Positions 3,881-57,819 of a stretch of DNA of 64,000 bases are shown here, piece after piece. The notes beneath the pieces are model-generated. The model was not told the DNA's origin. It searched no databases and saw only the letters and a program-made list of their open reading frames with translations. The translations under genes and the position numbers were made by a program. Source of the stretch: Bacillus ndiopicus (GTDB taxonomy: Bacteria > Bacillota > Bacilli > Bacillales_A > Planococcaceae); assembly GCF_000612805.1 (NCBI RefSeq), contig NZ_HG964407.1, forward strand, positions 1 through 64,000. Direction: 5' to 3'. The stretch's first letter is position 1. The number at the start of each line of letters is the position of its first letter.

Positions 3881-4050
3881 ACGATTAGTAATCGCAGGAG
3901 CAATTTATTTGTATCGAAATCAAAGTAACCGATACAAGATGCCCACTTCAAAGCTTTAAGTGGGAGCTTAACTGTCTGTAAAAACTTGATTAGTGGGAAC
4001 TAAAAATTAGTGGAGAAGAAGCCCCCACCAATTAAAGTTTCACTTTATTC
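3881..4050. repeat. Diverged single copy of the GACGAGTAAT repeat element in the rsbX position
   Basis: Bases 3881-3904 match the 33-bp tandem unit at 17274-17494 with two changes (ACGATTAGTAATCGCAGGAG against ACGACGAGTAATCGCAGGAG). Downstream come an inverted repeat CCCACTT/AAGTGGG (near 3942-3964), a longer inverted repeat (3985-4037), and GTTTCACTTTAT at the right end. The copy at 21211-21332 shares both ends. The 220-nt space between sigB and tex has no gene; rsbX would normally be here. It may be a decayed small mobile element, but no transposase remnant is visible. Confidence 0.6.
3981..4037 (-). terminator. Possible terminator of the sigB operon
   Basis: On the minus strand a 13-14 bp imperfect stem (4024-4037 with 3985-3997) is followed directly by TTTTTAC. 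It lies 30 nt past the sigB stop codon and inside the repeat element, so the element may supply the operon's terminator. Confidence 0.5.
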
Positions 4051-16456: not shown

Positions 16457-17149
16457 TTAAGGTGTGCAAAGAAATGCCAATACCTCACAAAACCACTCTT
16501 CACAATCATCGCTAAAACAAATATGATGCTTACCATTTGCCGATAAATATAAATGCTTATCCTCTGTTCGAATGTTATCGTATAAAAAGTGTGCTGCGAC
16601 ATGTGGAACGATGCCATCCTTTTCACCTTGAATAATGTATGTTGGAACATCGATCTGCTCAATGTAAGGCTCAACTTTTTTGACAATGCGCATAAATTCA
16701 ACCATCGAACTAAGTGGGACAGTAATTAGTTTGCGCTCATAACGCTGAAATAATTCATTATCCTTTAAATGCCCTCGAACTGCCTCTTTTGCCATTTCAC
16801 GCAAATCCTCTAACATTTGGACAGGACTCATGTATTTGATGGCTGCGCTCAATAATACAAGCTTTTTCACAGGATAACGTTTCGCTAAATATAAAGCGAT
16901 AACGCCCCCCATTGAAAAGCCAATAACTGTAATGTTATCTACTCGTTTCGCTAATTGGCGATAAGCGATTTCCGCATCCATTAACCAGTGCTGTGCTTTA
17001 TAGCCACGCATAGAAAGCTCCTCGCCATGTCCACAAAAAGTAGGTGTAACAATATCACATTCCATATGTTGCCGTATATATTCTGTTAATGGCTCTATTT
17101 CATATGGTCCACCTGAAAAACCATGCAATAATAAAATTCCTTGCTTCAT
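16457..17149 (-). CDS. Alpha/beta-hydrolase, carboxylesterase (Est30/YvaK type)
   Basis: A 230-aa monoacylglycerol lipase/carboxylesterase-like protein. The oxyanion region is LLLHGFSGGPYE, the nucleophile Ser lies in GFSMGG (about residue 82), the acid Asp in GEKDGIVP (about 178) and the base His in NGKHHICFSDD (about 208). No signal peptide, so cytoplasmic. The upstream region overlaps the terminator of murF. Confidence 0.88.
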   Translation of the reverse strand: MKQGILLLHGFSGGPYEIEPLTEYIRQHMECDIVTPTFCGHGEELSMRGYKAQHWLMDAEIAYRQLAKRVDNITVIGFSMGGVIALYLAKRYPVKKLVLLSAAIKYMSPVQMLEDLREMAKEAVRGHLKDNELFQRYERKLITVPLSSMVEFMRIVKKVEPYIEQIDVPTYIIQGEKDGIVPHVAAHFLYDNIRTEDKHLYLSANGKHHICFSDDCEEWFCEVLAFLCTP

Positions 17150-17246: not shown

Positions 17247-17273
17247 AGATCCTTAATTAAGCAATCTTTTCTA

Positions 17274-17494
17274 CGACGAGTAATCGCAGGAGCATATGTT
17301 TTTTTGCGACGAGTAATCGCAGGAGCATATGTTTTTTTGCGACGAGTAATCGCAGGAGCATATGTTTTTTTGCGACGAGTAATCGCAGGAGCATATGTTT
17401 TTTTGCGACGAGTAATCGCAGGAGCATATGTTTTTTTGCGACGAGTAATCGCAGGAGCATATGTTTTTTTGCGACGAGTAATCGCAGGAGCATA
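17274..17494. repeat. Seven-copy 33-bp tandem repeat
   Basis: Units start at 17274, 17307, 17340, 17373, 17406, 17439 and 17472. Each reads CGACGAGTAATCGCAGGAGC, then ATATG, seven T and G. Copies are essentially identical, so the array is recent or kept uniform. Each unit contains GCGA/TCGC that can form a small stem. Because 33 is divisible by three, several frames stay open through the array; these are not genes. There are no spacers, so it is not CRISPR. Diverged single copies lie at 3881 and 21211. The rest of 17495-17594 holds an AAATCATCTT/AAGATGATTT stem-loop and no gene. Confidence 0.95.
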
Positions 17495-17594
17495 TATTAA
17501 TGCAGGAAGCACAAATCATCTTCAAAAGATGATTTGATGAAAACTAACAATCATTAGAATAGAAAAAAATTCTATTGATTGGTATTTTGTTTTA

Positions 17595-18956
17595 TTACAG
17601 ATGCTCCAAAATCGTTTCGAGCTTCATACCACGTGAGCCTTTTAATAAAATAATGGATTGCTCATTGGCATTAGCCTGAATTTTTTGTGCGATTGGCATA
17701 TAGTCTTCTTCACTGTAAATTAAATGCTCAGAATCAAATGTTGTGGATAGTTTTTCATATAACCATTTCATGCGTGAACCATATAAACAAATATATTGCA
17801 CAGTAGCTTTATCTATATATTGTGCAATATTTTCATGAAAGGCTTGCTCGTCATCTCCAAGCTCTAACATATCGCCAAGCACAAGCCATTTTTCTGGTCG
17901 AATTGTTGTCGTTTGCATAAAATCAATAGCAGCTCGCATAGATGTCGGTGCTGCATTATACGCATCATTAATAAATAACAATGGACCCTTTTCCACTAAT
18001 TGCATGCGCATATCTGTTAACTCAATTTGCGCAAGCGCCGTGCCAATTTGTTCATCTGTTAAATTCATCGCTCTACATATAAGCATCGCAGCTAGTGTAT
18101 TTTTCACTTGATGCTTACCTAAAATAGGGATTGCAAACTCGCCATTAATTAATCCATTTACAGTAAAGCTACTACCTTTTTCAGTAGTTGTAATTTCAGT
18201 TACATAAAGCTCATGCTCTGTATCAAAGCCAAATGCCTTTGCCTCTGTATATACATCTTCAGCTACTAAATCACGTAATAATGGTTCATCACCATCGTAA
18301 ATAAGGAAGCCTTCTTCCAATAAGCCTTGTGTAATTTCATATTTTGCTTGCGCAATGCCTGCTCGTGAGCCTAAATCTTGCATATGTGCTTCACCTATGT
18401 TTGTAATAATCGCTAAGTGTGGGCGCGCAATACGTGATAAAAGCTCGATTTCACCAAAGCCACTCATGCCCATTTCGAGCACGGATACTTCCGTATCTTC
18501 AGCAAGCTGTAAAATAGTAATCGGTAGTCCTAGCTGGTTATTAAGGTTGCCAATTGTTTTTTGCACTTTAAAATACGGCGCTAATGCACTTGCTACTATA
18601 TCCTTCGCAGAAGTTTTACCATTAGAGCCTGTAATACCGATAAATGTTGCCTTATGCTCGCTGCGATAAGCAATAGCCATTTGCTGTAATGCCTGCTCTG
18701 CATCATCCACGAATATTAATGGTCGGTTTTCGGGCGGGTTTGGCTCATCTTTAAGCCACAAAGAAGCCGCTGCCCCTTTTTCAAATGCTTGCTCAACAAA
18801 TTTATGACCATTCACCGACTCACCGCGAAATGGTACAAATAAATCACCAGTTTGAATTGTGCGAGTATCAATTGAAATACCTGTTACAACAACATCTTCA
18901 TGCGATTGCTCATCTATTTTTAACCATGCAGCTAATTGCTTTATTGTTTTTTTCAC
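17595..18956 (-). CDS. murF: UDP-N-acetylmuramoyl-tripeptide--D-alanyl-D-alanine ligase
   Basis: A 453-aa Mur ligase that adds D-Ala-D-Ala to the UDP-muramyl tripeptide. The N-terminal domain has SIDTRTIQTGDLFVPF, the ATP-binding P-loop is GITGSNGKTS (about 107-116), and the C-terminal domain has NDAYNAAPTSMRAAI and LLKGSRGMKLE. It follows ddl by 12 nt, so the enzyme making D-Ala-D-Ala and the one using it share a transcript. Confidence 0.96.
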   Translation of the reverse strand: MKKTIKQLAAWLKIDEQSHEDVVVTGISIDTRTIQTGDLFVPFRGESVNGHKFVEQAFEKGAAASLWLKDEPNPPENRPLIFVDDAEQALQQMAIAYRSEHKATFIGITGSNGKTSAKDIVASALAPYFKVQKTIGNLNNQLGLPITILQLAEDTEVSVLEMGMSGFGEIELLSRIARPHLAIITNIGEAHMQDLGSRAGIAQAKYEITQGLLEEGFLIYDGDEPLLRDLVAEDVYTEAKAFGFDTEHELYVTEITTTEKGSSFTVNGLINGEFAIPILGKHQVKNTLAAMLICRAMNLTDEQIGTALAQIELTDMRMQLVEKGPLLFINDAYNAAPTSMRAAIDFMQTTTIRPEKWLVLGDMLELGDDEQAFHENIAQYIDKATVQYICLYGSRMKWLYEKLSTTFDSEHLIYSEEDYMPIAQKIQANANEQSIILLKGSRGMKLETILEHL

Positions 18957-57662: not shown

Positions 57663-57714
57663 AATCCATATAGTTTGTTTTAATTAACTATAGTACGAGG
57701 GCTTATTTTGAATT

Positions 57715-57819
57715 TTATTCCATGTTTTTTTATGTTTATTCCATGTTTTCAGAGATTTATTCCATGTTTTTTTAAGTTTATTCCACGTTTTCAAAGGTTT
57801 ATTCCACGTTCATCTCAAA
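57715..57819. repeat. Five-copy 21-bp tandem repeat
   Basis: Copies of TTTATTCCATGTTTT plus six variable bases start at 57715, 57736, 57757, 57778 and 57799, with CATG changing to CACG in the last two. The period of 21 keeps a frame open (7-residue repeats FIPCF..), but there is no good ribosome site for it, so I treat this as non-coding. Confidence 0.85.

Follow-up and report, generated by a model that had tools for sequence, protein, structure and literature searches.

A seven-unit hairpin array on the 3' side of murF in Bacillus ndiopicus as a probable run of the internal module of a BOX-type modular interspersed repeat of Planococcaceae

The BOX repeats of Streptococcus pneumoniae and S. 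suis follow the plan boxA–boxB(n)–boxC, are intergenic, and vary in unit number between strains; S. suis has one boxB type that occurs in two frames, A/C and E/F (PMC3049150, in part). BrickBuilt, a MITE of Porphyromonas gingivalis, contains a 23-nt minisatellite, lies between genes in every case, and has a strain-variable unit number (PMC4596501, in part), and the MIRU of Mycobacterium are dispersed minisatellites varying in copy number (PMC3635867, in part). Like BOX, the repeat described here is intergenic and composite, and its internal hairpin module may be absent or present in up to several tandem copies (PMC3049150, in part); with BrickBuilt the repeat shares a minisatellite inside a larger repeat, the intergenic location, and the variable units (PMC4596501, in part), and with MIRU the dispersed minisatellite of varying copy number (PMC3635867, in part). 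BrickBuilt differs in having one host element, in one species, and 23-nt units without a spacer (PMC4596501). The likeness to BOX concerns the plan only, and no homology is claimed; the core of our module was found in 0 of 359 sampled Bacilli outside Planococcaceae. Unlike the BOX module, the Planococcaceae module is set in at least three unrelated frames, is spread over 11 of 19 genera with an almost fixed core, and in one frame (family D, below) is nested in a reversed, long-stem form of its own half-sites. MIRU have longer units and are not known to show a module-in-host-repeat structure. No published description of the repeat was found in the literature searched, exact core strings included (subscription journals were mostly outside the search).

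The window analyzed here is the whole stretch of 64,000 nucleotides at positions 1 to 64,000 of contig NZ_HG964407.1 of B. ndiopicus (assembly GCF_000612805.1; this genome is G000 below). TRF reports a 33-bp period with 6.9 copies and 98% matches at 17267–17495; a second array, with a 21/42-bp period, is reported at 57706–57810 of the window. The seven near-identical units described in the initial annotation are real, and only one base differs overall: the cores start at 17273, 17306, 17339, 17372, 17405, 17438, and 17471, the core is exact in all units but copy 1, whose first base is A instead of G, and all six spacers are identical (Table 1). The array is likely to consist of tandem copies of the hairpin module found inside a modular interspersed repeat of BOX type, so far seen in Planococcaceae only. 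The murF terminator indeed lies beyond the array, as had been noted from the sequence, so that the murF transcript would include the reverse complement of all seven units.

Table 1. Features at and around the array (window coordinates).
Feature	Position	Strand	Details
Array of seven 22-nt hairpin cores GCGACGAGTAATCGCAGGAGCA and six 11-nt spacers TATGTTTTTTT	17273..17492	+	Period 33
One unit, RNA hairpin UUUUUGCGA-CGAGUAA-UCGCAGGAG	17299..17331	+	9 bp, G-U pairs included; -7.6 kcal/mol, z -2.25
Probable left end, eroded, of a family A host repeat, AGCAATCTTTTCT	17251..17272	+	Identical to own-genome copy L231; alignment
Possible remnant of the right part of family A, AATGCAGGAA	17493..17512	+	Common to the copy in L107/L230; weak, by eye
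Intrinsic terminator of murF, beyond the array	17246-17214	-	15-bp stem, then TTTGTTT; terminator scan
murF (453 aa), upstream gene; the array is in its 3' untranslated region	17595..18956	-	
Alpha/beta hydrolase-like gene (230 aa), downstream	16457..17149	-	Named by reading of the sequence alone
Single diverged core elsewhere in the window	3881..3902	+	3 mismatches

The window MurF is 86–87% identical to the MurF of two Metasolibacillus records, which points to Metasolibacillus as the genus of this genome. No core was found at the 80 murF loci fetched from relatives, two of which are Metasolibacillus; in 13 cases the 3' region was also inspected directly. Conservation in relatives, on which the initial annotation had made its case depend, is hence absent for the locus, while the element itself is found in 54 of 200 genomes of the family.

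In the regions fetched from the window's genome, the core GCGACGAGTAAYCGCAGGAGCA occurs at 103 places with at most three mismatches (a whole-genome search with the T form of the core gives 100 matches). The expectation is 0.04 under equal base frequencies and the reversed pattern has no match in this genome, which excludes chance. The matches form 69 clusters, 50 of them single cores, 11 with two, four with three, three with four, and one, the window array, with seven; T precedes the core in 68 of the 69. The view of the unit as a general element dispersed in the genome is thereby confirmed, diverged singles such as the one at 3881 included. By a simple open-frame test (not annotation), 67 of the 69 clusters are intergenic, the two exceptions being the window array, which lies in a false frame made by the repeat itself, and a leader ahead of a signal-peptide-like start. 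Single-linkage grouping of the flanks gives ten groups, a lower bound on the number of contexts, since A, B, and similar ends were chained into one group of 52.

The core is present in all five genomes of the genus examined. With one comparison genome per species, it is found at one mismatch in the 54 family genomes mentioned above, which belong to 11 of the 19 genera represented, and exactly, with the leading T, in 53 of 261 genomes drawn from the order, all 261 being Planococcaceae; in a sample of 398 Bacilli it occurs in eight, all among the 39 Planococcaceae members. The near invariance of the core across genera could reflect selection instead of recent spread. Two further arrangements were also seen: two inverted cores 5 bp apart in the window's genome (C1:857004-857052), and, in several genera, a core directly after a terminator-like stem and T-run (L182, L184, L185, L154, L144).

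The core is a module set inside other repeats, of which there are at least three different ones (A, B, and D), as each of these occurs with and without it. The module spans about 32 bp, a short T-rich leader followed by the 22-nt hairpin core, and once in a host repeat it is present as one to seven tandem units; in all three families, the outer frames enclose a variable number of internal modules, zero or one to four cores, as in the BOX-type plan.

Family B has the layout TTTAT-CCCGTATTAAC-AGGCTGTA-AGACCCCC...GGTTCAC-TTTAT. Its left end was matched 67 times in four genomes; of the 30 loci fetched, 28 are bounded by TTTAT on the left and 27 by TTCAC-TTTA(T/A) on the right. These bounds recall, by description only, the TTTAT motif of B. 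cereus bcr1–bcr18 (PMC6542083, in part). The core (at most five mismatches) is present in 12 of the 30 loci and absent from 17, among which L211 resembles a relic; the remaining one (L192) is not B. The module is found at two sites: at site 1 (G001), it follows GTATTAAC and makes a clean 31-bp difference (L198, L206, L213 versus L210, L215, L217); at site 2 (the window's genome), it follows GGCTGTA and has two additional C at its right edge (L193, L205, L209, L214); L202 carries it at both. Two B repeats standing head to tail with one TTTAT in common (L190 and L194, G001 C1:250666-250830) look as if B recombines at TTTAT.

Family A has the form TTAWCTTGATTCAGCA...; 27 loci were fetched, some of which are chance matches in genes, and 10 have the core. 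Empty copies are L233, L235, L238, and L246; filled ones are L230, L243, L239, and others. In L230, 32 bp stand between AGCA and AATG, and a second AGCA forms the end of the module itself. Of the 27 loci, 6 show inverted ends within 450 bp, L244 and L245 being the same element. Thirteen identical bases and the eroded end suggest that the window copy is probably a member of this family. A second hairpin, TGTA(T/C)CGAAAGCG(T/A)AGCGRCAGGTACA, which may likewise be modular, recurs in family A repeats of G000 (for example, L230, L243, and L246) and partially in a copy resembling B (L104).

Family D (G002 and G003; 33 matches, 30 fetched) is a long hairpin built on the opposite strand from the half-sites of the module, GCGACGAG-GATGGTGACAATTGATTGTGACCAC-CGCAGGAGCA. 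One to four cores lie in the loop in 17 of the 30 loci; the 13 without a core include L394, with a truncated core, and L406, L408, and L410, only distantly D-like. The leader before the first core is nearly constant within each of B1, B2, and D, so that few entry events, followed by spread with the host repeat, are needed to account for the filled copies.

The number of units changes at the same locus between close relatives, again as in the BOX-type plan. In the near-identical genomes G002 and G003, loci were paired by both flanks (11 of 23 G003 clusters and 3 of 15 G002 clusters remained unpaired among those fetched), and of the 12 orthologous loci obtained, 5 differ in the number of units, in each case by whole units: 3 versus 1, 4 versus 2, 3 versus 1, 1 versus 2, and 3 versus 2, with flanks 95–99.9% identical. 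Among loci with at least two units in G002 or G003, the number differs in 5 of 5. Variation of the kind anticipated between strains is thus seen for the element, between two near-identical genomes other than that of the window. No orthologous pair with zero units in one of G002 and G003 and at least one in the other was found, and two further D pairs are 0–0; the only coreless pairs being 0–0, no change from or to an empty repeat was observed.

Within the window's genome, 25 of 28 pairs of spacers taken from the same array of at least three units are identical, against 0 of 225 pairs taken from two such arrays. At core base 12, two cores share their state (C or T) in 56 of 62 pairs from one array and in 626 of 1316 pairs from different arrays. 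Both results are what local tandem growth predicts, which bears out the earlier proposal that the murF array was amplified in place.

The small GCGA/TCGC stem first noticed in the unit is real and longer than noted, extending to nine pairs as RNA on the plus strand (Table 1). The minus-strand unit gives -6.6 as RNA (z -2.77), and as DNA the unit forms a 5-bp stem with -4.1 on either strand. Over the 103 units, the pair at positions -2/17 is T-G in 49 and C-G in 48, and that at 4/12 is A-C in 59 and A-T in 41; the stem bases are almost invariant, and covariation is therefore unusable as proof of an RNA stem. Rfam matches in the window are eight tRNAs only; six element loci searched at E up to 1 gave two matches, both far below the gathering scores, and a known RNA family was rejected. 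A CRISPR array was rejected as well, the spacers being 9–13 nt long and mostly identical within arrays.

A regulatory role of the units, be it in termination, in stabilizing murF through a 3'-UTR hairpin, or in antisense RNA, would agree with the negative z values on both strands, with the terminator-like calls made by the terminator scan at five plus-strand units of the array, and with the upstream gene lying on the core's strand in 41 of 67 intergenic clusters. However, this orientation bias is weak, and no array stands at any of the 80 murF loci of relatives. The T-run begins about 6 nt past the stem in the window array and is missing after the last units of the B and D arrays, hence a terminator role is not general, although it is possible in the window array; as an explanation of the units, regulation appears quite improbable. 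Translation into short peptides (MFFCDE) has next to no probability and was rejected. The AGGAG-CAT-ATG frame of six codons ending in TAA, reported initially for each unit, is literally present in 6 of the 7 window units; element-wide, AGGAG..ATG..stop within 20 codons is found in 17 of 103 units and the six-codon frame in 8, 6 of which are those of the window array, so that the frame is not a property of the element. The SD-like run is only 3 nt from the ATG, the frame is on the strand opposite murF, and it is an accident of the TATGTTTTTTT spacer of this array. Collapse or expansion during assembly may concern the exact count of seven, since the genome is a draft in 22 contigs without reads; that the array as such is an artefact is highly improbable, given tandem cores in four of the five genus genomes (G000–G003), including arrays of two to three units in the single-contig genome G003, and the locus-specific spacers.

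Two further explanations concern what moves the module. It might be a mobile mini-element, with half-sites GCGACGAG...CGCAGGAGCA, that is inserted in trans and forms arrays by repeated insertion after its own AGCA end. Consistent with this, the same module stands at different points of unrelated host repeats, its right edge ...GGAGCA is exact at A, B site 1, and D (the left edge is T-rich and variable), and other loops, such as the 25-nt GATGGTGACAATTGATTGTGACCAC, are also found between the half-sites. Yet the right edge at B site 2 has the two extra bases, the near-constant leaders call for few insertion events, one spacer common to the units of an array is what local duplication predicts, and no enzyme candidate was found; we regard insertion in trans as unlikely, and as equally unlikely that the half-sites belong to the smallest independently inserting DNA elements, of about 27–33 bp. 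Were it true, an element with a hairpin between a T-rich left edge of varying sequence and an invariable AGCA end on the right would be copied into hairpin-bearing host repeats and beside its own end by a host or transposase function common to at least 11 genera, and other loops, from 11 to 57 nt, would be tolerated between the half-sites. Mobilization of the module as a REP element by RAYT, a Y1 tyrosine transposase, is very improbable. The module is a short hairpin repeat in many copies and, like REP, a dispersed palindrome of 20–40 bp (PMC3733652, in part), and four of the five genus genomes encode a RAYT-like protein; however, the window's genome is without one and has no Y1_Tnp match. RAYT homologues occur in 28 of 54 core-positive versus 65 of 146 core-negative family genomes (Fisher p = 0.43) and are missing in 7 of 11 genomes with at least 30 cores, and no core at up to six mismatches was found in the loci of about 3.3 kb around Y1 genes (L163–L168). 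Unlike REP/RAYT, the module also forms direct tandem runs, not head–head/tail–tail dimers (PMC3733652, in part). With no RAYT association, a REP/RAYT element was rejected.

As for other mobile elements, the window's genome contains one intact TnpB (L169), two TnpB fragments, and no TnpA, and L169 has only a 6-mismatch core-like stretch. Families A and B carry CCCCCACTT..AAGTGGGGG hairpins resembling those after tnpB genes; on this ground, a derivation of the A and B ends from IS200/IS605 may be entertained. As for spread by plasmid or phage, neither gave a match to window positions 17250–17520 at E 0.01.

Given no RAYT association and no Y1 gene in the window's own genome, we hold to the BOX-type reading, in which the unit number would change through slippage in replication, or through unequal recombination among units; the hairpin and the identical AGCA junction would favor such changes. 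Host repeats would be the main carriers of the module to new places in the genome, and its entry into a new host repeat would be a rare event. In the window, what came to lie between murF and its terminator is probably a decayed copy of family A, in which the module would have expanded to seven units. The array would give no product, any effect being exerted via hairpins in the murF 3' untranslated region, where it is probably near-neutral.

The plan of BOX, or of a minisatellite within a MITE, would thus extend to Planococcaceae, where our searches found no such repeat in print, with a single 22-nt hairpin whose sequence stays almost unchanged from one genus to another and in several unrelated host repeats. 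This makes it testable what moves or preserves a module of non-coding size, and how fast a hairpin minisatellite changes; the arrays may also be used as strain-typing markers for Metasolibacillus and its relatives. Two viral contigs also carry one exact core each (L247:6315-6336 and L248:3286-3307), in the same shared context, which is unlike host repeats A, B, and D.
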